NCBI GenBank assembly: GCA_903945495.1
Contig: CAJAVU010000021.1
Span: 124,001-188,000 of the forward strand
Direction: 5' to 3'
Source: an uncultured Flavobacteriales bacterium
Lineage (GTDB): Bacteria; Bacteroidota; Bacteroidia; Flavobacteriales_D; Crocinitomicaceae
Length of the DNA: 64,000 nt
Positions 1,376-28,783 of this stretch are shown in pieces (positions within the stretch are counted from its first letter, which is position 1; every line of letters starts with the position of its first letter). The translations under genes and the position numbers were made by a program. The notes under the pieces are model-generated. The model made no database searches, was not told the origin of the DNA, and saw only the letters and a program-made list of their open reading frames with translations.

Positions 1376-2228
1376 AAAAATTAAACCATTGCGTTGGATT
1401 AGAGCGTACCATTTGCTCCAACTTGCGCACGTATTTTTCAGCAATTTCTTCTGGACTTAATGCATCCAAAATAGGTTCTGTCGCTGATAAATTATAATGT
1501 AAACCTTTTCCTTTTACTGCAAAAACAAAAGTAATGGGCACTTTAAACTTACTTGCCATAATAAAAGGTCCAGCGGGAAACTCAGCTATTCCTTCCAAAA
1601 ACTTAAACCGAAACGTTTTTAGATTACTCATTGTTCGATCGGCATGCAAAGCAATTAATTCATTTCTTTTCAAGGCTTGATGAATCAGCACTAAATGCGA
1701 CATATCATCTTTCAACGGAATTAAATTGTATTTTGCCTTGTCAGTTGCATCTTCAATGAACGTTTTGATTTTTTCCACTTCATGGTCCAACATCAGGACG
1801 TTAATTTTCGACGTGATACGCTCTCCAATTAAGTTCCCTGCGTTTTCCCAATTCCCAACATGGCCAGAAAACAGAAAGCCGCCTTTACCATTTCCTGAAA
1901 TATCAAGTAGCGCTTGTTCGTTTTCAAAGCTGTGTGAATAATGGCGTTTTTTTGACGTTTTTAAGGCAATTCTATCAATTAAAACACGACCAAAGGTATT
2001 GAATGTTTTAGCGGCAAGCTTTAGCGCTTTTACTTTCGAGAAACCAAAGCCTTTTTGATAAAAATGCGTTAGTGCTTTTCGATGTTTTCCTGAAAAACAG
2101 ACAAAATAAAAAGCAACCCAGATACAAAAAAAATAGGAAATCCAAATACCAAAAAACTTGATACAAAGAACGAAAAACTTATATCCTAGAAGAGATCCTT
2201 TTGTTTTCCCATCCCATTTTTTTTCCAT
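1356..2228 (-). CDS. LpxL/HtrB-family lysophospholipid acyltransferase-like protein
   Basis: A 290-residue membrane-anchored acyltransferase. One hydrophobic segment spans roughly residues 17-45 (FFVLCIKFFGIWISYFFC). The HX4E acyltransferase motif is SGHVGNWE (His123, Glu128), as in lipid A late acyltransferases. Aryl-polyene and flexirubin clusters regularly carry such a protein, probably to transfer the finished polyene acyl chain or to attach it to a lipid. It starts 4 bp after the ACP stop, within the leftward pigment operon. A true LpxL role in lipid A synthesis is the alternative; the pigment context makes a dedicated role more likely. Confidence 0.8.
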   Translation of the reverse strand: MEKKWDGKTKGSLLGYKFFVLCIKFFGIWISYFFCIWVAFYFVCFSGKHRKALTHFYQKGFGFSKVKALKLAAKTFNTFGRVLIDRIALKTSKKRHYSHSFENEQALLDISGNGKGGFLFSGHVGNWENAGNLIGERITSKINVLMLDHEVEKIKTFIEDATDKAKYNLIPLKDDMSHLVLIHQALKRNELIALHADRTMSNLKTFRFKFLEGIAEFPAGPFIMASKFKVPITFVFAVKGKGLHYNLSATEPILDALSPEEIAEKYVRKLEQMVRSNPTQWFNFYEYYVD

Positions 2229-2497: not shown

Positions 2498-3721
2498 TTA
2501 TTTAATGAACTTTTTTATTATTAAGGATGAGTTGGTTCCACCAAAACCAAATGAATTGGAAAGGAAACAATCAATTTTTTTCTCAGTATATTCTGGAATA
2601 ATGTTAATGCGTTTTGAATCTTCGTCTGGATTTTCAAAATTGACATTCGGGGCAATGAAATCATTTTGCATCATCAATAATGAATACACCACCTCACTTG
2701 CTCCAGCCATCCAACATTCGTGTCCCGTCATTCCTTTCGTTGAACTTACAGGGGTTTTTGAGCCTAAGACATCAGCAATTACTTGCGCTTCTGTACCGTC
2801 TCCAACAACCGTTGAAGTAGCATGCGCATTGATGTAATCAATATCATCTGGCGTAACTCCAGCTTGCTTCAATGACATATTCAACGAACGGAATTGACCG
2901 TCAAAATTTGGGTTCGAAATATGATCTCCATTAGATGAGAATCCATAACCAATGATTTCACCATAGATTGGTGCATTTCGTTTCAATGCCGATTCCAATG
3001 ATTCGATGATCACCGTTGCTGCTCCCCCAGAAGGAACTAAACCATCACGGTCTCTATCGAAAGGACGAGAAGCGCGTGTTGGATCATCTTGACGCATTGA
3101 GAACGCACCCAAACCGTCAAAACTTCCCATGGCGTAAACATTGATTTCTTGTGCACCACCACAAATTACACGTTCTTGTAAACCTTGTTTAATCAACAAA
3201 TAACCCATTCCAATTGAGTGGGATCCTGAAGCACACGCCGCAGACATAGTAATATTGATTCCTTTCAATTTATAGATTGTCGAAAGGTTCATGTTTACAG
3301 TGCAATTCATGTTTTGAAAAATGTCACCACTTCCAATTAAAGTAGTGTCCTTTTTTTCACGCACTTTATCAATTGTATCAATTACAGCGCCTGCTGTAGA
3401 ATCATTTCCATAAATAATTCCCGTTTCATTGTGCTCTAAAAAATCAACATCTAAATTAGACCCTTCCAATGCTTCTTTTGTTGCCATGTAAGCAAACATC
3501 GCTGGTTGGTGCATGCCGATACGTTCTCTTCTGGAAAGAAACGGTTTCAAATCTGGATCTTTTACAAAACCTGTTAAACTTGAACGGTATCCAAAATCTT
3601 TTCGAATTGGATCATAGATAATTCCGCTTTTACCCGTTTGCAAAGAACCCAAAACATCATTTAGATTCTCTCCAATACACGAATAAATTCCTATTCCAGT
3701 TATAACGACTCTTCTCTCCAT
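2498..3721 (-). CDS. Beta-ketoacyl-ACP synthase, FabF-like
   Basis: A 407-residue condensing enzyme with a complete Cys-His-His triad: Cys163 in SAACASGSHS, His300 in NAHATSTVVGD and His334 in GMTGHECWMAG. The C-terminal NSFGFGGTNSS motif is also present. It catalyses decarboxylative Claisen condensation of malonyl-ACP with the carrier-bound chain. The start at ATG 3721 lies one base after the ketoreductase stop; the frame runs back to 3739 but would overlap that gene. It sits between the ketoreductase and carrier protein genes, the classic arrangement of type II fatty-acid or aryl-polyene synthesis. Confidence 0.93.
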   Translation of the reverse strand: MERRVVITGIGIYSCIGENLNDVLGSLQTGKSGIIYDPIRKDFGYRSSLTGFVKDPDLKPFLSRRERIGMHQPAMFAYMATKEALEGSNLDVDFLEHNETGIIYGNDSTAGAVIDTIDKVREKKDTTLIGSGDIFQNMNCTVNMNLSTIYKLKGINITMSAACASGSHSIGMGYLLIKQGLQERVICGGAQEINVYAMGSFDGLGAFSMRQDDPTRASRPFDRDRDGLVPSGGAATVIIESLESALKRNAPIYGEIIGYGFSSNGDHISNPNFDGQFRSLNMSLKQAGVTPDDIDYINAHATSTVVGDGTEAQVIADVLGSKTPVSSTKGMTGHECWMAGASEVVYSLLMMQNDFIAPNVNFENPDEDSKRINIIPEYTEKKIDCFLSNSFGFGGTNSSLIIKKFIK

Positions 3722-3722
3722 C

Positions 3723-4454
3723 TTATGAATAAATTCCACCGTTAATATTGACCACTTCTCCTGTAATATAACCGGCCTTTTCTGAAGCCAAAAAGCTAAC
3801 TAAATGTGCCACTTCTTCAACTTTTCCAAAACGATTCGCTGGAACCATTTTTTTCAATTCTGATTCATCTAACTCATTCGTCATGTCGGAGATAATAAAT
3901 CCAGGAGCAACAGCATTCACTGTAATATTTCGTTTTGCAACTTCTTGAGACAATGCTTTAGTTGCAGCAATCATTCCACCTTTAGCAGCTGAATAATTTG
4001 TTTGTCCTGGCACTCCTTTCAATCCACTTAAAGAAGCAATATTGATAATTCTACCAGAACGATTACGCAGCATTTTTTGAATGACTGCTTGTGTACAATT
4101 GTACATTCCTTTCAACGACGTATTTAACACGTCATCCCAATCTTTTTCTGTTACCCAAGGGAACAAATTATCGCGTGTAATCCCAGCATTGTTTACCAAT
4201 ACTTCGATTTTTTTATCAGGGTTGTTTGTAAACCATTCAGCAATAGAACTTGAAACTTGTTCAGAATTTTTCACATCAAACGGCAATAATTCAGCTGTTC
4301 CGCCATTCTCTTGAATCATTTTTTGTGTTTCTAAAGCAGCAGTCTCGTTTGAAGAGTAATTTATTATAATATGTAAATTCATGTCATTTGACAATTGAAT
4401 TGCTACTGCACGCCCTATTCCTCTTGAGGCCCCAGTAATTAAAGCACATTTCAT
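3723..4454 (-). CDS. 3-oxoacyl-ACP reductase, SDR family (FabG-like)
   Basis: A 243-residue short-chain dehydrogenase/reductase. It has the NADPH-binding TGASRGIG motif (residues 7-14), NNAG (88-91), and the catalytic Ser141, Tyr154 and Lys158 in a YSAAK context. It should reduce the 3-keto group of the ACP-bound polyene intermediate after each condensation. Its length is standard for FabG. The ammonia-lyase gene lies 2 bp upstream and the ketosynthase gene follows after 1 bp, consistent with one transcript. The housekeeping fabG is presumably elsewhere. Confidence 0.93.
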   Translation of the reverse strand: MKCALITGASRGIGRAVAIQLSNDMNLHIIINYSSNETAALETQKMIQENGGTAELLPFDVKNSEQVSSSIAEWFTNNPDKKIEVLVNNAGITRDNLFPWVTEKDWDDVLNTSLKGMYNCTQAVIQKMLRNRSGRIINIASLSGLKGVPGQTNYSAAKGGMIAATKALSQEVAKRNITVNAVAPGFIISDMTNELDESELKKMVPANRFGKVEEVAHLVSFLASEKAGYITGEVVNINGGIYS

Positions 4455-4456
4455 AA

Positions 4457-5980
4457 TTAGATAGTTGTTTTGCTTAATGTTTCGATAATATTACGAATAT
4501 TTTCAAATTGTGCAACATCTTCACCAACGTGAGGCGTAACTTTTCGAATAATATGATAAACTTCCATTGTTTTTGACGACAATAATTTTCTCTTTTCTTC
4601 GTCCAACAAATCAATTGCTTGGCAAACCGCCATCATGTGAATGGCCATCACTTGGAAACCATTGTCGATCACGCGTTTAGCAATAATTGCCGAATTCGTT
4701 CCCATACTAACAATGTCTTGATTGTCGTTGTTATTCGAAATACTGTGAACATACATTGGGTTCGATAACATTTGACTTTCCGCAGTTGTAGAGGTCGCAG
4801 TGAATTGCATTCCTTGCAAACCAAAATTGAAACCTAATACACCCATATTTAGGAAAGCAGGAAACTGATCGTTGATTTTGCTGTTCAATAAGAAATTCAA
4901 TTGACGTTCAGCCAACATAGTCATTTTTGTAACAACGATTTTTATTTTATCCATTTCCAAGGAAACATAATCTCCATGGAAGTTACCTCCGTGATAAACA
5001 TTTTGGTCTTCTACCGAAATAATTGGATTATCGTTTGTAGAATTGAATTCATTTTCCACCACTTTTTTGGCAAAATCCAAGGTTTCTTTCACTGGTCCCA
5101 AAATTTGTGGAACACAACGAATGGAATAATATTCTTGAATTTTCTTTTTGAATTCAATGTTTTGTAGAACGTCGTTATCCGAAAACAACTCTTCTCTTTT
5201 CTTGATTAAACTACTATCTGAAAGAAAATCGCGCATTTGGTCAGCAACATACATTTGACCTTCATGCAATTTCACGCGATTCAATCCAACAGAAAAAGAA
5301 TCATCGTACGCTTCGACCACTTCATTTATAATTGAAGAGCTAGCGATGCCCCAATTCAATAAACGGTAAGCGTATATAAGATTGATAGCACCCAAACCAG
5401 ACATACATGAAGTTCCGTTCATCAAACCTAATCCATCTCTTAATTCAATTTTCAATGGTTTAATTCCAAGTTCATTCAACACTTCCATGGTTGGTCTGCG
5501 TTCACCCTTGTATTTCACATAACCTTCGCCGATTAGGTTTAAGGCTAAATGCGCCAATTGAACAAGATCTCCACTTGCTCCAACTCCACCATGTTCGTAT
5601 ATTTCAGGATATATTTCTTCATTTAAGAAGGTTGTCAGTTGTTCAATCACTGGATAACTTACGCCAGAATTCCCTTGTAAGAAATTGTTGATTCGAGCAA
5701 CCAAAACAGCTCTTACACTTTCATCGTCAAGCACTTTTCCTGTTCCTGAAGAATGACTGCGGATTAAGTTATATTGCAGTTGATTCAATTTATCATCATC
5801 AATTTTGAATTGAGCCATTGGTCCAAATCCAGTATTAATTCCGTAGATGATTTTGTCACTTGAAAATTCTTTCAAAAAAGAAAATGAAGCTTCGATCTGA
5901 TGAATTAAATCATCATTAAGTTCTAAACGTTTGCCCTTGCAAGCATACTGTTCAATTGCCGATAAATCCAATCTATACAT
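4457..5980 (-). CDS. Aromatic amino acid ammonia-lyase, probably tyrosine ammonia-lyase
   Basis: A 507-residue HAL/PAL/TAL-family enzyme. The MIO cofactor arises from Ala135-Ser136-Gly137 in GGVGASGDLVQLAH. The catalytic Tyr46 lies in YGINTGFGPM. The substrate-selectivity stretch reads NLIRSHSSGTG with Ser-His at 75-76. That pair is HAL-like, but from memory it is also present in the characterised Flavobacterium johnsoniae tyrosine ammonia-lyase. Embedded in a flexirubin-type operon, it most likely deaminates tyrosine to 4-coumarate, the aryl starter. ATG 5980 was taken; the frame also has a TTG at 5992 closer to an AGGAG. Routine annotation would call it histidine ammonia-lyase; no other hut genes are nearby. 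Confidence 0.88.
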   Translation of the reverse strand: MYRLDLSAIEQYACKGKRLELNDDLIHQIEASFSFLKEFSSDKIIYGINTGFGPMAQFKIDDDKLNQLQYNLIRSHSSGTGKVLDDESVRAVLVARINNFLQGNSGVSYPVIEQLTTFLNEEIYPEIYEHGGVGASGDLVQLAHLALNLIGEGYVKYKGERRPTMEVLNELGIKPLKIELRDGLGLMNGTSCMSGLGAINLIYAYRLLNWGIASSSIINEVVEAYDDSFSVGLNRVKLHEGQMYVADQMRDFLSDSSLIKKREELFSDNDVLQNIEFKKKIQEYYSIRCVPQILGPVKETLDFAKKVVENEFNSTNDNPIISVEDQNVYHGGNFHGDYVSLEMDKIKIVVTKMTMLAERQLNFLLNSKINDQFPAFLNMGVLGFNFGLQGMQFTATSTTAESQMLSNPMYVHSISNNNDNQDIVSMGTNSAIIAKRVIDNGFQVMAIHMMAVCQAIDLLDEEKRKLLSSKTMEVYHIIRKVTPHVGEDVAQFENIRNIIETLSKTTI

Positions 5981-6007
5981 TGTATTATTCAATATCTCCT
6001 AACTGAA

Positions 6008-7057
6008 TTAGGAAAGTTTAACTTCTAAAATCGTATGAAAGCTGTCTTCATGTAATTGGTATGAATTCACACATTTCAAACCTGCTTTTTCAATGATGTA
6101 TTTTAATACGCTTGACGAGTACATTTTACTGTTTCCGTTTGCTATTGCCGTAAAGTATAACGAAGTTGCAACCAAGCTGAATGTTGCAGCAGGGAATTTT
6201 TGATCGTCAATGAAGGTTTCCATAATATAAATCGTAGAATCCTTGCTCGCGTTTTCTTTTATTTTGATAAGAATTGCTTCGATTTCTGCTTCAGAAAAGC
6301 AATCCAAAAATTGGCTCATCCAATACACATCAGCTCCCGCAGGAATTGTTGAAGTTGGATCTAACAAATCGATTTTTTGGTAATCAACTCTATCCTTGAT
6401 TTCATCAATTTTATTGATGTTTTCTTGTGCAACTTTCAATTGACCTGGTAAATCAAAAATAGTCACATTCACATCAGAATTGTATTTAGTTGAAGCAATC
6501 GCCCATTTTCCTGTGTTACCGCCAATGTCAAAAATGCGTTTTGGCTGATCTCTGAAAATAATTTTCAATGCATCGTCAAATGAATTGTCAGAATAAAAAT
6601 GATCAAACTCGAACCATGATTTTTTTACTGATGCTGGTAAGGAAGCTAAACCTTCATAAACCGTTTTCCAATCACCAAACACTTTCAATCCAGCTGGTGT
6701 CGTTGTTGAAATCGCATCTTTTAAATGGTACAATCCTTCATAACAAACATCTTGGGTAAACATCATATTTACGCGTGTCATTTCATCACGCAATATAAAA
6801 TACCCAACTTTTGTCAATTGGTATTTATCACCTTCTAACTTTTCCACGATTTCAGCTGCTTCAGCCATTTCGACCAATACAGTCAAACCGTATTTTGAAA
6901 CCTTAGATTTCTCAGCAATTTCGTCAATAGTTAATCCTTCTTTTTGCTCATTAATTATTTCAAAAAGACCCAACTCATACATTGAGTAAACGGTTTGAAA
7001 CACAAAAGGACTAAAAACAATTTTTTGGGCTTCATAAAGCGCGTCGATAGCTTTCAT
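6008..7057 (-). CDS. SAM-dependent O-methyltransferase, class I
   Basis: A 349-residue methyltransferase resembling acetylserotonin/hydroxyindole O-methyltransferases. It has an N-terminal winged-helix dimerisation domain (about 1-100) and a Rossmann domain with the SAM-binding motif FDIGGNTGKWA at about 176-186. It is the first gene of the leftward pigment operon, and a TATCTTTG promoter element lies about 47 bp upstream. Flexirubins and aryl polyenes may carry methoxy or methyl groups on the aromatic head, so ring O-methylation is the likely role. Whether the target is the free acid or the ACP-bound polyene is unknown. Confidence 0.85.
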   Translation of the reverse strand: MKAIDALYEAQKIVFSPFVFQTVYSMYELGLFEIINEQKEGLTIDEIAEKSKVSKYGLTVLVEMAEAAEIVEKLEGDKYQLTKVGYFILRDEMTRVNMMFTQDVCYEGLYHLKDAISTTTPAGLKVFGDWKTVYEGLASLPASVKKSWFEFDHFYSDNSFDDALKIIFRDQPKRIFDIGGNTGKWAIASTKYNSDVNVTIFDLPGQLKVAQENINKIDEIKDRVDYQKIDLLDPTSTIPAGADVYWMSQFLDCFSEAEIEAILIKIKENASKDSTIYIMETFIDDQKFPAATFSLVATSLYFTAIANGNSKMYSSSVLKYIIEKAGLKCVNSYQLHEDSFHTILEVKLS

Positions 7058-7111: not shown

Positions 7112-7191
7112 ATTATTAAAACTAAAATGAAAAGTAAAACATTTATAGTAGCGAAAAATGATAATCTTTTCCCCATATTCCTTCATTTTAT

Positions 7192-7199
7192 TACTTTTG
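7192..7199 (+). promoter_or_regulatory. Promoter -7 element for the rightward pigment operon
   Basis: TACTTTTG matches TAnnTTTG and ends six bases before the ATG at 7206. The transcript would begin almost at the start codon (leaderless or nearly so). This also argues against the upstream in-frame start at 7158. Confidence 0.5.
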
Positions 7200-7205
7200 A
7201 AGCAA

Positions 7206-8798
7206 ATGACAAAAAAAGACTTCGATGTTATCATCATAGGTGCTGGAGTTAGCGGACTTACAGCTGCTGCATTGCTATCAAAAGCTGGCCTTAAGGTCTG
7301 CGTATTGGAGCGCCATTATTTAATTGGTGGCTATTTGCAAGGATTTGATCGTAAAGGTTTCGTTTTCGATACTGCGATCCATTGGTTAAATCAATGTGGA
7401 GATCAAGGAACCGTAACCAAAGTTTTTGAATATTTGGGTAACGATTTTCCTCGACCAATTACAATGCAGTCGATTCACCAACACGAAACAAAAAATTATT
7501 CCTTTGTTTTAACAAATGATCCGGAGGAACTAAAAGCCCAATTGATTAAGGATTTTCCGCACGAGGAAGCTGGAATTGAAAAATTCTTTAAAGCTGCACG
7601 AACTGTTGCGGATGTTTCGAACAAATTTCCGCAGTTCTTTTTATCCAATGAGTCATTGAGTGGACTTCCAAAAATGACCTACAAATTAAAACAACTTCGT
7701 ATCATTTTTCCAATTATTAAGTACGCTTTGTACGGTGGTGAAAAAGGTGTTGAGAAAGGATTGCGCAAATTTTTCAAAGACGAGCGTTTGTTGGAGTTGT
7801 TTTGTTCGGAACCCGATTTGCTTTCTTGTTTATTTCCAATTGCTTGGGCCTACAATAAAGATTATCAAAATCCACCAATTGGCGGAAGTAAGGTAATTCC
7901 AGAATGGTTAGAATCAAAAATTGAAAAAAATGGTTCTGAAGTCATTTTAAGTGCCGAGGTTACGAACATTGGCATTGTCAACAATGTATTCCAAGAAGTA
8001 ACGTATAAAAAACGCCACAAAGATTATACAATCAGTGCCAATCATTTAATTGCCGCTTGCGACATCGATACACTTTATAACAAATTATTGCCAGCAGAAG
8101 CTGTTCCTCAAAAATTAAAAGAAAAACTTTCCAAATCTGAATTGTACAGTTCGTCTCTTACGATTTCTGTTGCGTTGAATTGTACGGCTGAAAGTCTCGG
8201 ATTTAAAGATGTAATGCTTTATTTGTTCAATGATGAAACGAAGCGAACAGAGCATATTTCTGGTGATCCACATAAATCGTTTATTAGTATTTTGGCCCCA
8301 ACTGTGCGCGATAAAACGCTCGCTCCTGAAGGACAAGGAACATTAAACATTTTTGTTCCAGCTTGGATGATGTATGAAGACAATTGGAAAACAAAAGTGA
8401 ATGAAAAAGGTGAGTTTGTGCGCACGGATGAGTACAAAGCCTTGAAAGAACAATTTGCACAAATCATTTTTGAGCGTGTTGAAAAACAAGTTTGTCCGAA
8501 TTTGCGTGAACACATTTTATTTTACGAGGTTGCAACACCAGTTACTTATCATCGCTACACGCACAACAAAGACGGTTCGATGATGGGAACACGACCAGGA
8601 CGAATCAATATGCAATTGAAAGTTGCACATTACCGAGCTCCAGTTAAAAACATTTTTATCGGTGGACATTGGGCAGAACTTGGTGGTGGAGTGCCAATTG
8701 CAGTGAAAGCGGCATTTAATGCAAGCTTAATGGTTTTAAAAGACGTCAATAAAAAAGAATATAAAAAATTAGCTGACTATCCTAAAACGTGGGATTAA
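7206..8798 (+). CDS. FAD-dependent desaturase/isomerase-like oxidoreductase (CrtI/CrtISO family)
   Basis: A 530-residue flavoprotein. The N-terminal dinucleotide-binding fold is DVIIIGAGVSGLTAA, followed by LERHYLIGG, typical of phytoene desaturase, carotenoid isomerase and retinol saturase relatives. The C-terminal FAD segment reads NIFIGGHWAELGGGVP. Such enzymes recur in flexirubin clusters although no carotenoid genes (crtB, crtE) are present here; polyene tailoring or aryl-ring oxidation is possible. ATG 7206 was chosen over 7158 because the first 16 residues of the longer frame precede the conserved MTKKDFDV start and overlap the promoter element. It heads the rightward operon. Confidence 0.85.
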   Translation: MTKKDFDVIIIGAGVSGLTAAALLSKAGLKVCVLERHYLIGGYLQGFDRKGFVFDTAIHWLNQCGDQGTVTKVFEYLGNDFPRPITMQSIHQHETKNYSFVLTNDPEELKAQLIKDFPHEEAGIEKFFKAARTVADVSNKFPQFFLSNESLSGLPKMTYKLKQLRIIFPIIKYALYGGEKGVEKGLRKFFKDERLLELFCSEPDLLSCLFPIAWAYNKDYQNPPIGGSKVIPEWLESKIEKNGSEVILSAEVTNIGIVNNVFQEVTYKKRHKDYTISANHLIAACDIDTLYNKLLPAEAVPQKLKEKLSKSELYSSSLTISVALNCTAESLGFKDVMLYLFNDETKRTEHISGDPHKSFISILAPTVRDKTLAPEGQGTLNIFVPAWMMYEDNWKTKVNEKGEFVRTDEYKALKEQFAQIIFERVEKQVCPNLREHILFYEVATPVTYHRYTHNKDGSMMGTRPGRINMQLKVAHYRAPVKNIFIGGHWAELGGGVPIAVKAAFNASLMVLKDVNKKEYKKLADYPKTWD

Positions 8799-8828: not shown

Positions 8829-11800
8829 ATGGGTACATTTTTATCCTCCATTGTTCGTTTACTCATTCGAAAGCCTTTGTTGTTTGTGCTTCTTTTTCTG
8901 GGAAGCATTGGGTTTTTGGTGAATGGTATTTTCCAGTTAAACATCAATGAAGATTTATACTCAATATTTCCAAAAGGTGAAGAATATCAAAAAGTTAATC
9001 AGTTAATTCAGGAAAATTCTATCAATAAACAAATCGTTTTTTCTATTAAAAGTAGTGACGACCAAACGCTTCTGGATGAAAATTTAGCTTCGCTAGAAGA
9101 AGAGATTACCACTAAGTTTAAAAATGAGATTACAGATGTAAAGGTCTATTCTTCGGTCAATGAGAAAAAACTGCTTCGTTATTTTCAAAAATCAGCTATT
9201 CTTCGCTTCAATGAGCAAGATTATACGCGCATTGATCAACAATTAACCACCGATTCGATTAACTTAAAAATTAAATCCGCTGCACAAAAACTAGAAGGTA
9301 CCAATGGTTTTTTCTTAAAACATCTTTATGCTTTTGATCCTTTAGGTCTGACATTCAAAAAACTTGAATCACTTAAACCTGAGCAAGGGAAAGGTTCCTA
9401 TGTTGTCAAAGACGGTTTGATTTATACGAAAGATGAACAAAAAATTATCTTTTTTGCAACGGTAGCAATTGATTCAAAAGACATTGCGCAACTAACGAAA
9501 TTGAATGAAAAGCTGACTTCTTTCAAGGAGAACATCAATCAGAAAAAACATTTAGAATTTGATTACTTCGGAACTTTTCAAATAGCTGTTGAAAACGCCA
9601 AACAAGTAAAAGCGGATACGTATTTAACTTCTTTTTTAAGTTTAGCTGCAATTCTGCTTCTTTTGGTCTTGTATTACCGAAGCGTTTTAGCACCTTTCTA
9701 TTTTGTGCTACCAGCAGTATTCGGCGTTTTGTGTGGTATGGGAATGATGGGATATTTACAACCTTCCATCAGTGCCATTTCCTTGGCAACGGCTTCTGTT
9801 CTTTTAGGAATTGTACTCGATTACTCCTTTCATTTCTTTACGCATTACAAGCATTCAGGTGATTTAATCAAAACAATTGAGGAAATCAGTGCGCCGATGG
9901 TGGTGGGAAGTTTTACTACAGTGGCGGCTCTTGGGGCTTTGCTTTTTGCCGAATCAATCATTCTTCAAAATTTTGGATTGATTGCTTTGTTTACTTTATT
10001 GGGTTCTGTTTTGTTCACACTCGTTTTCCAACCTGTGCTGTTTACCCTTACCAAAGTGAAACTTCCACAAAGTATTCAAAAAACGACCGACAAAAAAACA
10101 CCGAAAATTTTACTTCGAATTGGTTTCATTGCTATTGCTGTAATAACGTTTATCTCTTTTCAAAGTGGACTTCAATTGTCATTTGATGCGGATTTAAACA
10201 ACCTTTCCTATCACACCGATGAGATTAAGCAAAAGGAAAATTTCTATACAGGAATTAACCCTGGTGAAGAAAAGAAGTTTTACATCATTGCTAGTTCAAA
10301 CACAGCTGAAGAGGCGAAAGCGATCAATAATCAGATATACGATACACTACAAAACCTGAAAGGCACATTGGCTATTTCAGAATTGATTTCTACAGCTCCA
10401 TATTTGCCAACTCAGGAACAAATTACTAGGGCAGAAAACAAATGGAATCGCTTTTGGGCGAATAGAAAAAATCGCATTGAACAGGAAATTAAAACCGCTG
10501 CCAGCGCTTATAATTTTTCGGAAAATGCCTTTAACCCATTCTACAAATGGATTGATTCTGCTCAACTGAATCCAGAAGATGGAGCTGAGTTATTGGAAGC
10601 TTTAAGCCTCGATAAATTTGCGTATCAATCGGACGGAAAACAAACATATATTACCAGTATTGTTGTCAACCGAAGCGATCTTAAAGCATGTAAAGAACAC
10701 CTAAGAAACATTGATAACATCTACATTCTTGACATTGCAGAAGTAACAGAAATGATGTTGAATTCAGTTCAAAAAGATTTCAATTTTCTACTGATATTTT
10801 CGGCTTTGCTAGTGTTCGTTACACTTTTATTACTCTATGGTCGTATCGAATTAGCCTTGTTTGCTTTCCTACCAATGGTCATCGGCTGGGTGTGGATTTT
10901 GGGTATCACGAACTTCTTCGACATCAAGTTTAACTTTGTAAACATTGTAATCACCACGTTTATTTTCGGTCTGGGAGATGACTTTAGTATTTTCTCAACC
11001 GATGGATTGATCCAACAATATCGCACGGGAAGTTCTGCTTATAAATCCTATCGCTCAGCAATTCTATTGTCGGGAATAACAACGATTTTAGGAACAGGCG
11101 TTTTAATTTTTGCAAAACACCCAGCAATTCATTCAATTGCATTGATTAGTACGGTTGGAATTTCAACCATTCTTTTTATTGCCTTGTTTATTCAACCAAG
11201 CATCTTCAATCTATTTGTTTTTAAACGCTTGAAGAAAGGTCGATCGGTCATTACATTTTTCACGTTAATTTATAGTGTTCTACTTTTCACCTACTTTTTT
11301 GTAGGAAGTATCTTATTGAATGTCTTTTTGTTATTAATTCTATATCCACTTCCAGTTAAAAAACAGCGTAAACGGGACTTTTTAAATTACTTAGTTTCAA
11401 AATTGGCGAAATCAACTCTTTATGCTGGTTTACACGTGAAAAAGCGCGTTTACATTGAAAATGTAGACTTTAGTAAGCCCAAACTATTGATTGCAAACCA
11501 TAGTTCATTCCTCGATATTTTATCAGTGATTATGCTTCACCCGAAAACAGTAATCATGGTGAAAAATTGGGTGTACAATTCACCAGTATTTGGTTTATTT
11601 ATTCGCTATGCTGGTTATCCATTTGCGAAAGAAGGAGCATCACAGGATCTTTCTCAGTTAAAGGAATTAATTGCGAATGGTTATTCTATTGTGATATTTC
11701 CTGAAGGAACGCGCAGTAAGGATGGCGAAATGAATCGGTTCCATAAAGGCGCATTTCACATTGCTCATGAGTTAGAATTGGATATTCAACCACTATTATT

Positions 11801-12632
11801 GATTGGAATTCATCTTGTAAATCCTAAAAATGATATTCTAATTAATCGTGGCCATTTAATTGTAAAAGCGCTCGATGTTATTCCGTTTGATTCTGCTATT
11901 AGCTATCAAGAAACTGCGAAAATCGCCAAGAAAAACATGCAGGATGGAATGGCCATTTGGAAGAAAGAATTGGCAAAAACTGACTTCTGGGAACCATTTA
12001 TTATTAAAAACTATATTCTTAAAGGTCCAATCCTCGAATGGTATGTCCGCATAAAATGGATGCTTGAGAAAAAGAATTTTGATTATTACGACACCCTGAT
12101 CGACGATCGAAAAGTAATTTACGACTTCGGTTGTGGTTACGGCTATCTTAGCTATTATTTGCACTATAGAAACAAAAACCGAAAAATTATCGGGGTTGAT
12201 TATGACGCTGACAAAATAGCTGTTGCGAATCATGGTGTGAAATATTCTGACCATCTACAATTTGAAGCAAATGACATTCGTCAAACAGAACTATCTGCTT
12301 GCGACGTAATCTTTTTGAATGATGTCTTGCATTACCTTCCGCAAGAAGATCAATATCACTTTCTTCAAAGAGCCTTGGACGTTTTAGATCAACAAGGGAT
12401 CTTGTTTATCCGCGATGGGATCAAAAAAGAAGAAGATTCAAGTTACAAATACACAAAAATCACTGAGTTTTTGTCGACAAAAGTCTTTGGTTTTAATAAA
12501 TCTGAACATCCGTTAGAATTTATTTCTGAAGAGAAAATGCGCAGTTTCGCAGAATCAAACAATCTTTCTTTAGAAATTATAAAACATTCTAAAACAACAT
12601 CTAATGTTTTACTAATTTTGCGAAAGAGTTAA
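8829..12632 (+). CDS. Trifunctional fusion: MMPL/RND exporter + PlsC acyltransferase + SAM methyltransferase
   Basis: A 1267-residue protein with three recognisable parts. Residues 1-about 850 form an MMPL-type RND exporter: one N-terminal membrane segment (about 15-35), a large extracytoplasmic loop, then a membrane cluster (about 262-420), a second loop and a second cluster (about 640-850). Residues about 860-1070 are a PlsC-type acyltransferase with NHSSFLDIL (HX4D: His891, Asp896) and FPEGTRS (957-963). Residues about 1085-1267 are a class I methyltransferase with DFGCGYGYL at about 1099. It lies between two flavoenzymes in the pigment operon. Export of the polyene coupled to acylation in the outer membrane is a reasonable inference; the methyl acceptor is unknown. 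No frame break separates the parts. Confidence 0.88.
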   Translation: MGTFLSSIVRLLIRKPLLFVLLFLGSIGFLVNGIFQLNINEDLYSIFPKGEEYQKVNQLIQENSINKQIVFSIKSSDDQTLLDENLASLEEEITTKFKNEITDVKVYSSVNEKKLLRYFQKSAILRFNEQDYTRIDQQLTTDSINLKIKSAAQKLEGTNGFFLKHLYAFDPLGLTFKKLESLKPEQGKGSYVVKDGLIYTKDEQKIIFFATVAIDSKDIAQLTKLNEKLTSFKENINQKKHLEFDYFGTFQIAVENAKQVKADTYLTSFLSLAAILLLLVLYYRSVLAPFYFVLPAVFGVLCGMGMMGYLQPSISAISLATASVLLGIVLDYSFHFFTHYKHSGDLIKTIEEISAPMVVGSFTTVAALGALLFAESIILQNFGLIALFTLLGSVLFTLVFQPVLFTLTKVKLPQSIQKTTDKKTPKILLRIGFIAIAVITFISFQSGLQLSFDADLNNLSYHTDEIKQKENFYTGINPGEEKKFYIIASSNTAEEAKAINNQIYDTLQNLKGTLAISELISTAPYLPTQEQITRAENKWNRFWANRKNRIEQEIKTAASAYNFSENAFNPFYKWIDSAQLNPEDGAELLEALSLDKFAYQSDGKQTYITSIVVNRSDLKACKEHLRNIDNIYILDIAEVTEMMLNSVQKDFNFLLIFSALLVFVTLLLLYGRIELALFAFLPMVIGWVWILGITNFFDIKFNFVNIVITTFIFGLGDDFSIFSTDGLIQQYRTGSSAYKSYRSAILLSGITTILGTGVLIFAKHPAIHSIALISTVGISTILFIALFIQPSIFNLFVFKRLKKGRSVITFFTLIYSVLLFTYFFVGSILLNVFLLLILYPLPVKKQRKRDFLNYLVSKLAKSTLYAGLHVKKRVYIENVDFSKPKLLIANHSSFLDILSVIMLHPKTVIMVKNWVYNSPVFGLFIRYAGYPFAKEGASQDLSQLKELIANGYSIVIFPEGTRSKDGEMNRFHKGAFHIAHELELDIQPLLLIGIHLVNPKNDILINRGHLIVKALDVIPFDSAISYQETAKIAKKNMQDGMAIWKKELAKTDFWEPFIIKNYILKGPILEWYVRIKWMLEKKNFDYYDTLIDDRKVIYDFGCGYGYLSYYLHYRNKNRKIIGVDYDADKIAVANHGVKYSDHLQFEANDIRQTELSACDVIFLNDVLHYLPQEDQYHFLQRALDVLDQQGILFIRDGIKKEEDSSYKYTKITEFLSTKVFGFNKSEHPLEFISEEKMRSFAESNNLSLEIIKHSKTTSNVLLILRKS
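12614..12621 (+). promoter_or_regulatory. Possible internal promoter element
   Basis: TAATTTTG matches TAnnTTTG and lies in the last codons of the fusion gene, 15 bp before the ATG at 12637. It could give extra transcription of the last two genes of the operon. No TTG partner element was established. Confidence 0.3.
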
Positions 12633-12636
12633 CTAA

Positions 12637-14169
12637 ATGAGTGCACCTAAACAATATGATTTCGTAATAGTAGGAAGTGGCATCGGCGGCCTTTCATCGG
12701 CTGTCATGTTGGCAAAAAACGGCTATTCTGTCCTTGTATTAGAGAAAAATCATCAAATTGGTGGTGCGCTCCAGGTTTTTAGTCGCGACAAATGCATTTT
12801 CGATACTGGGGTTCATTACATTGGTGGACTTGACGAAGGAGAAAATTTGTACAGAATGTTCAAATATTTGGGCATTTATGACGGTTTAAACCTACAATCG
12901 TTGGATCGTGATTGCTTTGATTTGATCCGACTGCCAAATGGAAAATCCTATCCTCATGCACAAGGGTATGCAGCATTTTCTGCGAATTTAATTCAGTGCT
13001 TTCCAGAAGAAAAAAAAGCAATTGATGCCTTTTGCGTGAAAGTACGGGAAATGTGTGATTTCTTCCCATTGTACAACCTAGAGATGGGTGATGAGCAAAC
13101 CTATTACAACAATCCCGAGATTCTTATGTTGGGTGCTTGGGATTACGTTTGTAGTATTACTGAAAATGAAGATTTGCGCAATGTACTACTTGGTTCAGGA
13201 CCTTTGTATGCTGGTGACCAAAAATCTACTCCTTTTTATGTTGTTGCCTTAATAATGAACAGCTATATCAAAGGAAGTTATCGTTTGGTAGATGGTGGAT
13301 CTCAAATTGCAAAGTTATTAGTGAAAGAATTGCGCAAACATGGTGGTGAAATTCTGAAACGTAAAGAGGTTGTAAGTGCAAACTTCAATGAGCAAAAAGA
13401 AATAACTTCCGTTAATTGTTCAGATGGAACAAGCTATGCTGCATCGAAGTTTATTTCGAATATGCATCCAACTCCTACAATTAACATTTTTGGAAAGCAA
13501 AATTTCAGACCGGCATATAGAGATCGCATTGCAAAACTTGAAAACACGGTTTCTTCGTTCATGATATATTTTTCACTGAAAGAAAATTCTTTTCCTTACT
13601 TCAATTACAACATCTATGATCATTATTCCATGGATTGCTGGAATTCAGTAAAGTATGACGTAAATGAATGGCCGCACACCTTGTACTTGTGTACTCCAGC
13701 TTCCTCTAAATCAATGGAATATGCTGAGTCCCTTTGTGTGATGTGTTACATGTCGTATGAGGAAGTAAAAGAATGGGAAAACACCTTCAATACTGTTTTG
13801 AATCCTTCTAAGCGCGACGAAGCTTACCAGAAATTTAAAGCGGAAAAGGAACAGAAAATCGTAGAACGTATGGAATTACGTTTTCCGGGATTCTCTGAAA
13901 AAATAATGAACGTTTATAGTTCAACACCCTTAACCTACAAAGATTATATCGGAACACCAGAAGGTTCTTTGTACGGTATCATGAAAGATTATAAGAACCC
14001 TATTGCTACAACGATTAACACGAAAACCAGAATCAGTAATTTGTACTTAACAGGTCAAAATATCATATTCCATGGAATTCTAGGTGCAACAATTGGTGCA
14101 TTTGTTACTTGTTTCAATTTTATTGATCCTGAAGAGACTATTAAAAAAATAAAAGAGTATGAAAAATAA
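12637..14169 (+). CDS. FAD-dependent desaturase/isomerase-like oxidoreductase, second copy
   Basis: A 510-residue flavoprotein of the same broad family as the protein at 7206. The Rossmann motif VIVGSGIGGLSSAVML is at about 10-25, then LEKNHQIGGALQVF, and a C-terminal NLYLTGQNIIFHGILGA segment. It starts 4 bp after the fusion gene and its 3' end overlaps the next gene by 11 bp, so translation is probably coupled. It resembles carotenoid isomerase and all-trans-retinol 13,14-reductase relatives. In a flexirubin cluster it may set polyene geometry or carry out an oxidative step. Its exact chemistry is not known. Confidence 0.84.
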   Translation: MSAPKQYDFVIVGSGIGGLSSAVMLAKNGYSVLVLEKNHQIGGALQVFSRDKCIFDTGVHYIGGLDEGENLYRMFKYLGIYDGLNLQSLDRDCFDLIRLPNGKSYPHAQGYAAFSANLIQCFPEEKKAIDAFCVKVREMCDFFPLYNLEMGDEQTYYNNPEILMLGAWDYVCSITENEDLRNVLLGSGPLYAGDQKSTPFYVVALIMNSYIKGSYRLVDGGSQIAKLLVKELRKHGGEILKRKEVVSANFNEQKEITSVNCSDGTSYAASKFISNMHPTPTINIFGKQNFRPAYRDRIAKLENTVSSFMIYFSLKENSFPYFNYNIYDHYSMDCWNSVKYDVNEWPHTLYLCTPASSKSMEYAESLCVMCYMSYEEVKEWENTFNTVLNPSKRDEAYQKFKAEKEQKIVERMELRFPGFSEKIMNVYSSTPLTYKDYIGTPEGSLYGIMKDYKNPIATTINTKTRISNLYLTGQNIIFHGILGATIGAFVTCFNFIDPEETIKKIKEYEK

Positions 14170-15376
14170 TTTCGATGTTGTCGTAATTGGTGCAGGTCCT
14201 GCTGGATCTGTTGCGGCTTGTAAACTTATGAAAGAGGGATTCACTGTTAAAGTGATTGAAAAAATGGAATTTCCTCGCTTCGTAATTGGAGAAAGTTTAC
14301 TTCCTCATTCAATGGATTTTTTGGATGAATTGGACTTGTTAAAATGTGTTGAAGATCAAGAATTTCAGGTTAAAACAGGAGCATGTTTTTACCACAATGA
14401 AGAGCGTTGTGATTTTCTTTTCAGCGATCAATTTACGCAAGGTTGGACCTATACATATCAAGTAAAACGTGCTGACTTTGACAATGCTTTAATTAAAGAA
14501 ACGCAAAATAAAGGTGCGGATGTTGAATTCAAAGCAGAAGTTTTGGAGGTGAAAACAGGTAAAGATCAACAATACGTAAAATACTTGAATGAAAACAACG
14601 AAGAAATAGAGCTATACTGCCGATTCGTTGTGGATGCAAGTGGTTACGGTCGTGTTTTACCACGCATGTTTAAATTAGAAGAACCTGTTCCAACGCCACC
14701 ACGTTCTGCTGTTTTTTCACATTTCGATGATAGCAAACGTACAGAAGAAGCAGGAAGAAACATTTTTATTCATGCGTTCAATGACAATACATCATGGATT
14801 TGGTCAATTCCATTCTCTGACGGAACAGCATCTGTTGGAATTGTAGGAAACACAGATTACATCGAAGAATGTGCTGCGAACGATGGACAAAAATTCAAAG
14901 AATTGGTAGCTGATTTCCCAGGTTTGGATGGACGATATGCGAATGTTGATTACAAATTTGAACCGCGCACAGTTTCAAACTATGCGGTTTCTGTAAAGCA
15001 ACTACATGGTGAAGGCTATATTCTTTGTGGAAATAGTACAGAATTCTTAGATCCTATTTTTAGCTCTGGAGTAACTTTAGCGGTTTCTTCTGGGTATAAA
15101 GCAGCAACATTGGTAAGTAATTTCCTAAAAGGTGAAAATGTCAATTTTGACGATTACAGTGTTGAATTGAAAAAGGGAATTGATGTGTTTAGAAGTTATG
15201 TGAATGGTTGGTACGATGGTACTTTACAAACTGTTTTCTTCTCAGATAAAACAAATGATGACATCAAACGACAAATTTGTTCTGTATTGGCGGGATATGT
15301 TTGGGATGAATCAAATCCATTTGTGAAAAAGCATTCCACAGTCTTAAAAACACTGGCGAAGGTGGTACAACTTTAA
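14159..15376 (+). CDS. Flavin-dependent halogenase-like/monooxygenase-like tailoring enzyme
   Basis: A 405-residue FAD enzyme. The nucleotide-binding GAGPAG is at 11-16 and the GESLLP stretch at 44-49. Lys72 in QVKTGACF aligns, by eye, with the lysine that carries the chloramine in flavin-dependent halogenases. TSWIWSIP at 211-218 resembles the halogenase WxWxIP motif, and LDPIFSSGVTLA matches the halogenase DPxFSSGVxLA segment. Chlorinated flexirubins have been described in this phylum, so ring halogenation of the aryl head is a specific hypothesis. A hydroxylase of the same superfamily is the alternative. It is the last gene of the rightward pigment operon and overlaps the preceding gene by 11 bp. 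Confidence 0.8.
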   Translation: MKNNFDVVVIGAGPAGSVAACKLMKEGFTVKVIEKMEFPRFVIGESLLPHSMDFLDELDLLKCVEDQEFQVKTGACFYHNEERCDFLFSDQFTQGWTYTYQVKRADFDNALIKETQNKGADVEFKAEVLEVKTGKDQQYVKYLNENNEEIELYCRFVVDASGYGRVLPRMFKLEEPVPTPPRSAVFSHFDDSKRTEEAGRNIFIHAFNDNTSWIWSIPFSDGTASVGIVGNTDYIEECAANDGQKFKELVADFPGLDGRYANVDYKFEPRTVSNYAVSVKQLHGEGYILCGNSTEFLDPIFSSGVTLAVSSGYKAATLVSNFLKGENVNFDDYSVELKKGIDVFRSYVNGWYDGTLQTVFFSDKTNDDIKRQICSVLAGYVWDESNPFVKKHSTVLKTLAKVVQL

Positions 15377-16061: not shown

Positions 16062-17318
16062 TTATTTAAAAATTATTTTTTCGGGTTTACGCAGGTTCTT
16101 CTTGTACACTTGCGCTTGAATCTTTTCCAAATCATCAAACTCGAAGTTAGGAATCACTTTCAGCTTTGAATGACATTTGTTTTTAATCTCTGTCATCAAC
16201 TCACTTTCCTGCAGTTTTGATTCTAATAAGATGGTCACTAAATCATTCTGCAAATCATCTTTTGAAACAGTTATTTTGTAACAAATTACTTCTCGAATTG
16301 AATCAAAAATATCAAATATCGCTTGCGGGAAAACAGTCGTTCCTTTGTACTTAATCATTTGATTTTTTCTTCCAACGATTGGACCCAAACGCGGTGTCTT
16401 TCTTCCACAAGTACAAGGCTCTGAAAAACGTTTTGCAATGTCGCCTGTACGATAACGAATTAATGGTGTTCCTGTAACTCCTAACGTTGTAATGACTACT
16501 TCTCCCTCATCTCCATTCGCTACTTCTTCTCCATTTTCGTCGAGCACTTCCAAAAACAACAATTCATCATTCAAATGACATCCTTGCTGTGCTTCACATT
16601 CGGTGAAAGCAGTTGCCATTTCTGTTGAAGCATATGTTGAATACAGTTGAATTGGCCAATCTTTGGTAATTCGTTCTCCCAAAATATTTAAAGAAAAAGC
16701 ATCATCGCGCACCGATTCACCAATACAAACAATTGTTTCAACACTTGTTGTACTCAAGTCAATCTTATTGGTTTTCGCATAGTTGATGAGTGTAAGAATA
16801 AAACTTGGTACAGCAATCAATACACGCGGTTTGTATCGCAAAATTGAATTCCATTGTAACTCAGGAACCCCAGGACCGATGCGAATCATTCCAGCTTCTA
16901 GCTTTTGAACTCCTTGATAATAGGCCATTCCCGCCATGAACTGACGGTCGATTGTGGTCATTAATTGAACAATATCACCTTTTTGAACGCCTGCAAGTTT
17001 CAAGGAATCGCGTTCATTGACTGCCAAGCGATCTAAATCTGAGCGTGTCAAAAAAATAGTTACCGGATCTCCCGTTGTGCCTGAAGTTGTTACAAAATCT
17101 GCAACTTCGGTCATTGGAACACATAGAAAATCTGTATTGCTTTCGGATAAATCTTGCTTTGTAGTAAAGGGAATCATCTTCCAATTCTCCTGCAGCTCAC
17201 TTACACTTAGCTCATAAAATCCATTCAATTTTGACTTGTAAAACGGTGAATTGTCCAAAGCGTAACGCACGGTTTCAATCAATGAATCGGTACTTTTCTG
17301 ATTGTCCATTACTATCAT
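16062..17318 (-). CDS. Adenylate-forming ligase, phenylacetate-CoA-ligase-like
   Basis: A 418-residue AMP-binding enzyme. The P-loop-like TTSGTTGDP motif lies at about 77-85, and LIRYRTGDIAKRF is the adenylation (A7-type) motif. The C-terminal small domain is present. Members in aryl-polyene clusters activate the 4-hydroxycinnamate starter for loading on the carrier protein. The ammonia-lyase at 4457 would supply that substrate. ATG 17318 was selected because it overlaps the stop of the C45 gene (ATGA); the frame extends to 17336, and an alternative ATG lies at 17309. The internal cysteines CTCGRK are typical of PaaK relatives. Confidence 0.85.
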   Translation of the reverse strand: MIVMDNQKSTDSLIETVRYALDNSPFYKSKLNGFYELSVSELQENWKMIPFTTKQDLSESNTDFLCVPMTEVADFVTTSGTTGDPVTIFLTRSDLDRLAVNERDSLKLAGVQKGDIVQLMTTIDRQFMAGMAYYQGVQKLEAGMIRIGPGVPELQWNSILRYKPRVLIAVPSFILTLINYAKTNKIDLSTTSVETIVCIGESVRDDAFSLNILGERITKDWPIQLYSTYASTEMATAFTECEAQQGCHLNDELLFLEVLDENGEEVANGDEGEVVITTLGVTGTPLIRYRTGDIAKRFSEPCTCGRKTPRLGPIVGRKNQMIKYKGTTVFPQAIFDIFDSIREVICYKITVSKDDLQNDLVTILLESKLQESELMTEIKNKCHSKLKVIPNFEFDDLEKIQAQVYKKNLRKPEKIIFK

Positions 17319-18988
17319 TTCTTCGCCGTTGAACATTCTTTCACCAAACCTTCTAGCTCAAGGCGCGTGTTCTTAGAAGCTAGATTTTTTGTTAAAGCAC
17401 GATTAAACATTTCCTTCGCCTTGGTGCTTTTTCCTTTCTTCATAAAGTATTTACCCAAGACCTCATACGTCACGTAGGATTCACTATTGTAAGCAATGAA
17501 TTTCTTGATATCCGCTTCTGATAAATTCAATGTTTTATCAAACAGCAAGAATTCTGTAATTTGATGTTTCACCTTCTTAAAGGCTAAGAAATCTTTGTAT
17601 TCATTTGAATAGACAAACGGAGAGGCTGCCAATTGATTGGAAACAACCGCTTTTTTGGTAGCAAATGTTTTTTTCAAATCATACCCAACAAATTCACCCA
17701 TTTGGAAATTACTAGTAGAAACATAAAATAAGTTCCTTTCAGGTTGCATAATTACACTGTGATGCGCAATTAATTGATTGATCGCACGTGGATTTCCCAT
17801 TCCCAATGTATCATTGGCTGTTGCCATTTGATCACGTAAAATTGAAAGAACATTCTCAACTGTTAAACCTTTCTTGGCTTTCAACAGCTCATTAACGCGG
17901 GCATAGCGGAATTTACTGTCGCTGTCCTGGATGTTTTTTACGTTCACCGGATCTTTCTTAAACGTAGCCGATTGGTAATGATTTGCACAAACCAACGTAC
18001 TTGTTTTACTATCATAAACACCCGTTTTGGTAGGTGATTTTTCAATTAAAACCGCTTTCCCATCTTTTGCTGATCCAATCATTAATGTTTCCGAAACAAA
18101 GGTATGTCGCTTTTTTGCAATGGCAACTGCTTCTTCGATTGTACTTGCATATTGCAATATTTCACGCGCCAATAATGAAATTGGTTCTTTCGTTCCTGTC
18201 GGTAAATCCGATTTCGAAGCATTAATGGTAACACTTAACCCTTGATCATTCATCCCAGAGGCAACACCTGTAAACCCAGCCCAAGAATAAGAAACGAACG
18301 AGTGACCTTTCGTTGGATTCACGAATAACACCAATTTTTCTTTCGCAAAATCATCGCCAACATAGAAATCAAAATTACGACCAATTGTCAAATCACCTTC
18401 TGCAGTCATTTCATCTTTTAGGGCAAATGACGTACAACCAACCATGCTGTAATCATTCAACGCGTGACCAATGTCATGGGCCGCATGATAATTCAAAATG
18501 CGCGTATACTTTGAAGCGATGTAATCGTATTCGTCCGAAAATGATTGTGAAATACCGTATATTTCTTGTTGATTCTCAAGAGGTATATAAGCTGGCAAAT
18601 CAGAATTAAAAAAGCCCAATAACAAACGTAAAAATTGTTGCCAAAATTCACTTGGAACAAATTGATCGATCTGTTTTACAAAAATTTCTTCCTGTTTTTG
18701 CAACAATTCTTTCGAAAGTTCGCCGTATACCAACCCACGTTCATAAGCATCACCTTCGATATACATTTCCCAAACACCAAATTCATTCTTTCGCAAATAA
18801 TTTGGACCTAAAACATAATGATCTTTGCCCACTTTGACACGTTTTCCAATGTGCACATCAGAAACAAGTGGTGGATGAATTTCGGCATTGAATGTAATAT
18901 ACATGATCAAAGTGATGAAAAATGCCAAAAACAATTCAGCACTAATACCAATCAATCGAATTACATATTTTGTTAGTATTTTTATCAA
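17315..18988 (-). CDS. C45-family autoproteolytic acyltransferase/hydrolase-like membrane protein
   Basis: A 557-residue protein with one N-terminal membrane segment (about residues 12-33) and an Ntn-hydrolase domain. The probable nucleophile is Cys185 in SMVGCTSFA, followed by GRNFDFYVGDD and NDQGLSVTINAS, the pattern of acyl-CoA:6-aminopenicillanate acyltransferase (C45) relatives. The last 70 residues resemble a TPR helix pair (KYFMKKGKSTKAKEMFNRA). It opens the leftward trio with the ligase and secreted protein. Flexirubins are esters of an aryl polyene acid with a dialkylresorcinol, so an acyl-transfer or ester-forming role is possible; this is inference. Classical C45 enzymes cleave themselves before the Cys; that cannot be seen here. 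Confidence 0.78.
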   Translation of the reverse strand: MIKILTKYVIRLIGISAELFLAFFITLIMYITFNAEIHPPLVSDVHIGKRVKVGKDHYVLGPNYLRKNEFGVWEMYIEGDAYERGLVYGELSKELLQKQEEIFVKQIDQFVPSEFWQQFLRLLLGFFNSDLPAYIPLENQQEIYGISQSFSDEYDYIASKYTRILNYHAAHDIGHALNDYSMVGCTSFALKDEMTAEGDLTIGRNFDFYVGDDFAKEKLVLFVNPTKGHSFVSYSWAGFTGVASGMNDQGLSVTINASKSDLPTGTKEPISLLAREILQYASTIEEAVAIAKKRHTFVSETLMIGSAKDGKAVLIEKSPTKTGVYDSKTSTLVCANHYQSATFKKDPVNVKNIQDSDSKFRYARVNELLKAKKGLTVENVLSILRDQMATANDTLGMGNPRAINQLIAHHSVIMQPERNLFYVSTSNFQMGEFVGYDLKKTFATKKAVVSNQLAASPFVYSNEYKDFLAFKKVKHQITEFLLFDKTLNLSEADIKKFIAYNSESYVTYEVLGKYFMKKGKSTKAKEMFNRALTKNLASKNTRLELEGLVKECSTAKK

Positions 18989-28526: not shown

Positions 28527-28557
28527 AAAACCAGCTCTGTAAAGCTGGTTTTTTTAT
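28527..28557. terminator. Terminator behind tRNA-Arg (bidirectional)
   Basis: AAAACCAGCT pairs with AGCTGGTTTT over the 6-base loop CTGTAA, with T runs on both strands. On the minus strand it lies just downstream of the tRNA-Arg gene. Confidence 0.85.
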
Positions 28558-28560
28558 TAG

Positions 28561-28752: not shown

Positions 28753-28783
28753 TTTGGACTTGAGAAGCTCTTCTCAATCTTCA

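Follow-up and report, generated by a model that had tools for sequence, protein, structure and literature searches.

The gene at positions 8829–12,632 of the window, the 64,000-nucleotide stretch of contig CAJAVU010000021.1 analyzed here, encodes a protein in which an MMPL/RND exporter, a PlsC-type acyltransferase, and a class I S-adenosylmethionine (SAM)-dependent methyltransferase are joined in one chain. Judged by its sequence, it is an intact member of an already known kind of protein: the exporter usually appears to continue into a PlsC domain and a methyltransferase-derived tail in Bacteroidota. Comparison with relatives indicates a usual core of exporter and acyltransferase, with the methyltransferase as an accessory that in many of them is lost as an enzyme yet kept as a domain. 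We put at roughly one in two the probability that the fused protein sits in the inner membrane and exports and tailors the product of a flexirubin-type aryl-polyene (APE) pathway. Outer-membrane pigments of the APE and flexirubin types are widespread, and one protein with both an exporter and tailoring enzymes, whose methyl step whole groups of genomes have lost, is a natural experiment: pigment masses across genomes with and without each methyltransferase should reveal which atom each of them methylates.

From the ATG at 8829 to the end of the stop codon at 12,632, the frame is single and unbroken (1267 residues), and the three modules that the preliminary description had read in it are borne out by Pfam and by motifs. 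The MMPL profile matches in two stretches (60.3 bits, cut-off 20.5), Acyltransferase (PF01553) at residues 876–989 (71.9 bits, cut-off 23), and Methyltransf_31 at residues 1092–1198 (54.3 bits, cut-off 27). Both PlsC motifs, HX4D (H891...D896) and FPEGTRS (957–963), are intact, as is SAM motif I (DFGCGYG, 1099–1105), and D1165 and H1168 of NDVLHYL are also present. MMPL/RND transporters have 12 transmembrane (TM) helices, TM1 and TM7 each being followed by a large loop, and their proton-relay aspartates sit in TM4 and TM10. The hydropathy of the window protein follows this RND pattern, with 12 hydrophobic segments and large loops at 36–268 (233 residues) and 446–650 (205 residues), and both aspartates are there (D331 in TM4 and D718 in TM10). 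A further hydrophobic segment, at 893–911, falls within the PlsC fold and is not included among the membrane helices. Hydropathy and a PlsC-type hairpin support the reading that the enzyme domains come after the last exporter helix; from the usual RND topology, both would be cytoplasmic, as had been proposed.

The C-terminal half (residues 806–1267) was modelled with a mean predicted local distance difference test score (pLDDT) of 92.0 and a predicted template modelling score of 0.87 (66 sequences). Residues 807–1052 of the model, hairpin included, align with Thermotoga maritima PlsC (5kym_A; Z 25.5, 239 aligned residues, 2.7 Å), and the remainder aligns with the TehB-like class I methyltransferase 2i6g_A (Z 19.8, 170 aligned residues, 2.3 Å). 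A sequence search for solved relatives of this half returned PlsC first, then the putative methyltransferase 3dtn, phosphoethanolamine N-methyltransferases, and YecO.

The spread of the three-part form, which the preliminary description had proposed to check by a domain survey across Bacteroidota, was followed in a phylum draw of 395 genomes, including the window's own. Whole proteins served as queries, a design that would miss any cluster whose three genes are separate and whose exporter is distant; 50 of the 395 genomes match at 1e-20, and 33 of them exceed 240 bits. In 31 of these 33, exporter, PlsC, and methyltransferase-derived tail lie in one frame: 30 (window included) enter an alignment, A1, and one has a shortened tail (G394), while G118 and G347 have the exporter only. 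The rest of the 50 are two genomes with weak exporter matches (80–88 bits) and others that match over PlsC alone. The fusion, first taken to be unusual, is not so among genomes with a strong exporter match, and a RefSeq product name for the three-part form exists. What does stand of the notion that the form is special is the scarcity of the fully intact version: of the 33 strong-match genomes, just 6, window included, retain the SAM motif. In two genomes, G567 of the same genus (G567:C29:46642-50657) and G467 of the same order (G467:C29:8815-12578), the protein is in two pieces; the break, which may be a frameshift, an error, or a real split, lies within the exporter and not at a domain border. 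Neither the three-part fusion (in titles and abstract starts) nor the terms 'flexirubin' with 'MMPL' or 'trifunctional MMPL family' were found in the literature searched, which did not extend to subscription journals and preprints.

A1 consists of 33 rows, the 30 from the phylum draw and three named metagenome-assembled genomes (MAGs). MMPL and Acyltransferase match in all 33 rows, and a Pfam methyltransferase model in only nine; the PlsC residues H891, D896, F957, P958, E959, and R962 are invariant throughout. The other 24 rows, all from families f5 or f6, have DFGCGYG replaced (e.g., HLGNDYGQLD) and a tail shorter by about 50 residues. Families f6 and f5 may correspond to Flavobacteriaceae and Weeksellaceae, and f4 to Chitinophagaceae. 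A larger set of 109 rows comprises the window and 108 loci (G811 twice) from four draws of up to 30 loci each plus 12 more. Left out of it were L033–L035 (named MAGs, motif intact), L058 and L060 (split), L064 (contig edge), L112 and L115 (exporter only), L108, L110, L111, L116, and L129 (partial frame or only a part matched), as well as G118 and G347 and two genomes broken by contig ends (G667 and G691). Here, H891 is kept in 101 of 109 rows and D896 in 103, and the TM10 aspartate D718 in every one.

The methyltransferase motif is intact in 64 of the 109 rows, mostly in f4 (39/64) and in f1, the window's own family (17/64); 40 rows have a decayed tail and five have none. As 'intact' was defined by a pattern on motif I, counts of that motif's own columns would be circular, but D1165 and H1168, which were not used in choosing rows, are each kept in 63 of the 64. 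With 45 of the 109 rows lacking an intact methyltransferase, the methyl step appears dispensable.

Decay of the motif has not freed the domain from selection. In the f5/f6 loci L009–L032, the SAM motif in the last ~150 residues is lost and the methyltransferase domain is under purifying selection, with a median ratio of nonsynonymous to synonymous substitution rates (dN/dS) of 0.236 over the methyltransferase core (65 of 76 pairs usable), where intact f1 copies give 0.06 (17 of 28 pairs usable) and f4 copies 0.098 (3 pairs). The medians are 0.049 (f1, 14 of 28 pairs usable), 0.053 (f5/f6), and 0.051 (f4) for the exporter and 0.042 (f1, 16 pairs usable) and 0.077 (f5/f6) for PlsC; in all of these, the pairs are non-independent and many dS values are near saturation. 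The constraint on the f5/f6 methyltransferase is thus relaxed, not neutral, and the even constraint across the three parts in f1 speaks for a methyltransferase in the window protein that is probably active.

A tree built from only the exporter part (108 rows, the second G811 row being left out; quick LG+G4 inference, with long branches meeting) requires at least five changes of the methyltransferase state. Thirty of the decayed rows form one Flavobacterium-type clade, and the other ten are f11. The former includes six rows of the window's own order, four of them from genus g178 of f1, which suggests gene transfer; the f1 members L066, L068, L069, L118, and L119 fall within it. In f11, decay reaches PlsC: its motifs are changed in L102 and L104 (FPEG region replaced in both, HX4D altered in L102) with the domain still present, and the 970–971-residue homologues L105 (1054–3963) and L107 (1453–4365) have no PlsC left, only the decayed methyltransferase tail.

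The lost activity does not seem to have moved elsewhere. When the window's methyltransferase domain (209 residues) was searched against 46 genomes without an intact one, 45 gave no match at 1e-8, and the sole match, in G021 (E 2.9e-9, 27% identity over 115 residues), looks unrelated; equally weak matches accompany the fused copy in two of four intact genomes (G444 and G300). Relocation to a separate gene was accordingly set aside, no ortholog being found among the 46 genomes. Loss of the whole pathway was rejected for the Flavobacterium-type decayed clade, where FlxA exceeds its cut-off in 30 of 30 rows. Since that clade keeps FlxA and no other copy was found, its pigment should lack whatever the fused domain adds. 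In f11, seven of the eight decayed or tail-less genomes tested (G394, G826, G883, G804, G777, G822, and G796) give no FlxA match at 1e-100, and the eighth, G857, has a match below the cut-off; the pathway may have been lost in these genomes.

The setting in a pigment cluster, as first described, is supported by curated NCBIfam matches: with FlxA, FlxB, and FlxY above their cut-offs, the cluster is predicted to be of the flexirubin type, for an orange pigment (Table 1). Upstream on the same contig, DarB, DarH, and LolA2_flexi exceed their cut-offs and relatives of glycosyltransferases and polysaccharide deacetylases occur, while the DarA candidate gives no NCBIfam match at 1e-10. LolA2 and LolB2 are described as always present in flexirubin-type loci (PMC11885536). 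The FAD (flavin adenine dinucleotide) oxidoreductase that starts 4 bases past the fused gene's stop has a counterpart at the equivalent position in Aureispira and Persicobacter, where, by annotation, the fused gene is again followed by a FAD oxidoreductase, a C45, and an AMP-binding gene in that order; Persicobacter adds LolA, a polysaccharide deacetylase, and an ammonia-lyase. Similar neighbor genes were recognized in G118 and G394 by reading of frames. The halogenase-family enzyme agrees with the occurrence of chlorinated flexirubins. Farther along the window, a minus-strand frame at 28,557–28,814 with a repeated 19-residue unit is perhaps no gene, and a 1387-residue frame at 59,623–63,786 has many similar repeats and a C-terminal end that, by reading, looks like that of gliding or type IX secretion proteins.

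Table 1 The fused gene, its parts, and neighboring genes of the pigment cluster, in window positions.
Feature	Positions	Strand	Basis or score
Three-part protein, MMPL/RND exporter + PlsC-type acyltransferase + class I SAM methyltransferase	8829..12632	+	1267 residues
Exporter part, residues 1-803	8829..11237	+	Hydropathy, Pfam MMPL, alignment columns
Hydrophobic hairpin, residues 804-841, matching the position of the Thermotoga PlsC N-terminal helices	11238..11351	+	Hydropathy, structure comparison
PlsC catalytic domain, residues 846-1040, both motifs intact	11364..11948	+	Pfam, motifs, 5kym_A
Class I SAM methyltransferase domain, residues 1060-1267	12006..12629	+	Pfam, motif, 2i6g_A
Relative of lipid A lauroyl acyltransferase	1356..2228	-	64.9 bits, below cut-off 248
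Beta-ketoacyl synthase	2498..3739	-	Profile matches
FlxB short-chain dehydrogenase/reductase (SDR)	3723..4454	-	397 bits, cut-off 340
FlxA, tyrosine ammonia-lyase of flexirubin synthesis	4457..5992	-	811.5 bits, cut-off 700
Second methyltransferase, FlxJ-like	6008..7057	-	454.2 bits, below curated cut-off 560 (NF053543)
Carotenoid isomerase/desaturase-like FAD oxidoreductase, directly upstream of the fused gene	7158..8798	+	Below cut-offs
Second carotenoid isomerase/desaturase-like FAD oxidoreductase	12637..14169	+	Below cut-offs
FAD enzyme, tryptophan-halogenase family	14159..15376	+	94.7 bits, cut-off 21
FlxY acyl-CoA ligase	16062..17336	-	567.5 bits, cut-off 520
C45 family autoproteolytic acyltransferase/hydrolase	17315..18988	-	227.3 bits, cut-off 85

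The second methyltransferase of the cluster bears on what the fused one may do. Its product matches almost the whole FlxJ model (E 2.6e-136) below the curated cut-off and is called FlxJ-like here; the fused protein gives no match to this model at E 0.01. The FlxJ-like protein shares 49.4% identity, over 94%, with a methyltransferase that occupies the ApeB place in a plasmid cluster of Enterobacter asburiae, where that gene adjoins a chain-length factor and a lysophospholipid acyltransferase. The gene order of this cluster follows the ape table (PMC8253772) up to LolA, where an insertion sequence cuts it before the exporter, leaving only the methyltransferase and the acyltransferase visible as separate genes. 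From its resemblance to the ApeB-place enzyme, the FlxJ-like protein is the better candidate for methylating the ring, and the fused domain would be a second enzyme that probably methylates something else. Where the fused domain is intact, 63 of the 64 genomes have a FlxJ match (E 1e-30 or better), the exception, G742, being 69% complete; where it is not, 17 of the 45 rows have one. FlxJ occurs without an intact fused domain and the reverse hardly ever, a pattern that is suggestive only.

In the explanation we favor, the PlsC part, held in the membrane by its own hairpin, would acylate a lipid-like acceptor in the cytoplasmic leaflet, the group transferred most likely being the polyene or a fatty chain. 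The methyltransferase part would then methylate the acylated product or its anchor, this being a second methylation distinct from that of the ring by the FlxJ-like enzyme, and the RND part, proton-driven via its TM4 and TM10 aspartates, would move the product outward for hand-over to LolA2. The methyl step would be an accessory that several lineages dropped while retaining a decayed methyltransferase on the chain. We infer these acylation, methylation, and export steps from the observed sequence, domain make-up, motifs, pathway setting, and conservation. The earlier picture of a machine that acylates, methylates, and moves the polyene keeps the same inferential status, and its methyl step is qualified both by the dispensability seen among relatives and by the better fit of the FlxJ-like enzyme to the ring.

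Several observations weigh against this explanation. The TM4 aspartate D331 is kept in only 65 of the 109 rows and is replaced in the other 44 (Asn in 39, Ser in 5); energy coupling may differ among lineages, given this variable position and the invariant one in TM10. PlsC is missing from G118 and G347 (by length and match) and from several f11 rows, so acylation by this protein would not be universal. The single published ring methyl (PMC3992019) would be covered by one methyltransferase. Most FlxJ matches are below the curated cut-off, which is exceeded in 2 of 33 genomes in one set and 13 of 80 in another, and the tree gives three independent pairs for the link between FlxJ and the fused domain (median sign-test p 0.5); FlxJ as a phylogenetically supported partner was rejected as a statistical claim.

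The fused methyltransferase could itself be the ring C-methyltransferase of the polyene head, with the FlxJ-like enzyme methylating elsewhere or redundant. The ring methyl of flexirubin derives from methionine, and known derivatives vary in ring methylation and chlorination (PMC3992019). A methionine-derived methyl would suit such a role, and among 24 f5/f6 genomes 22 combine a decayed fused domain with the absence of FlxJ, so that either could be the ring enzyme. We consider this assignment unlikely, however: it is the FlxJ-like protein that resembles the enzyme in the place of ApeB, the proposed head-group methyltransferase (PMC8253772), the fused protein does not match the FlxJ model, and FlxJ is still present in 17 of the 45 rows that have no intact fused domain.

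Alternatively, the methyltransferase fold might be mainly structural or regulatory, propping PlsC against the exporter or sensing SAM or the polyene and gating transport, with catalysis secondary or past. The decayed f6 protein L009, when modelled, keeps a confidently predicted methyltransferase-like fold (mean pLDDT 87.0 from 30 sequences, 86–95 in 10-residue blocks over the domain; Z 15.4 with 154 aligned residues at 2.9 Å to TrmR, 5zw3_B), and both the purifying selection on the f5/f6 copies and the tails that outlast PlsC in L105 and L107 point the same way. Yet the catalytic columns are near invariant in the window protein and other intact rows, the f1 constraint on the methyltransferase about equals the exporter's, as expected of an enzyme, and five rows do without the tail, which makes such a role quite doubtful. 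It is still more speculative, and rather improbable, that the fused methyltransferase became a part of the export machine whose SAM- or substrate-bound state gates the hand-over of the polyene-lipid to the exporter; if this were true, loss of methylation would have left lineages obliged to retain the fold, and a pseudo-methyltransferase would serve as a transport module.

A general envelope lipid transporter that merely adjoins pigment genes is a very improbable account. The exporter is weakly like HpnN (E 0.0017) and MmpL4 (E 0.0037) among solved structures, from which function is not readable, and most of the f11 genomes tested lack a FlxA match; against this, homologues adjoin pathway genes in Aureispira and Persicobacter as well as in G118 and G394, and FlxA accompanies every row of the Flavobacterium-type clade. 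Finally, although the source is a draft genome in 114 contigs, the joining of two or three genes by a sequencing error is refuted by 29 other phylum-draw genomes, some in a single contig (e.g., G269, motif intact), with open frames of 1219–1305 residues and no internal stop across the same match, and by the Aureispira and Persicobacter plasmid records; the low dN/dS of all three parts in f1 also makes it very unlikely.

Among known systems, the E. coli APE pathway has the same three predicted roles, with a LolA-like ApeL, in three unfused genes: the RND exporter ApeM, the lysophospholipid acyltransferase ApeD, and the methyltransferase ApeB; deletion of apeD left late intermediates, and without apeM no APE metabolites were detected (PMC8253772). 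Azoarcus likewise has arcM, arcR, and arcP as separate genes (PMC3949708). In these accounts, separate genes are the proteobacterial form (PMC8253772, PMC3949708), and the claim that the roles are usually divided holds there but fails in the Bacteroidota draw, where the single frame prevails among strong exporter matches. The ApeB place in Enterobacter holds a FlxJ-type enzyme, unlike the fused kind of methyltransferase. T. maritima PlsC (5kym) shares the fold of residues 807–1052 and is not fused to an exporter. For Chitinophaga pinensis flxP-flxU and the flexirubin locus of Flavobacterium johnsoniae, a polysaccharide deacetylase, a phospholipid/glycerol acyltransferase, LolA, a glycosyltransferase, and an exporter were proposed for pigment export, in an account whose text, as consulted, mentions neither a three-part fusion nor its methyltransferase (PMC3992019). 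The Persicobacter homologue, on a plasmid record, has the motif intact and is annotated only as an acyltransferase. The closest counterpart in name is WP_264793640.1 of Aureispira anguillae plasmid pAUEa, a 'trifunctional MMPL family transporter/lysophospholipid acyltransferase/class I SAM-dependent methyltransferase' whose function is also predicted. It differs in being plasmid-borne with its FAD oxidoreductase, C45, and AMP-binding neighbors on one strand, and it agrees with the window protein in its three parts and their order, in 34.8% identity across 98% of the latter, and in having HX4D, FPEGTRS, and GCGYG intact.

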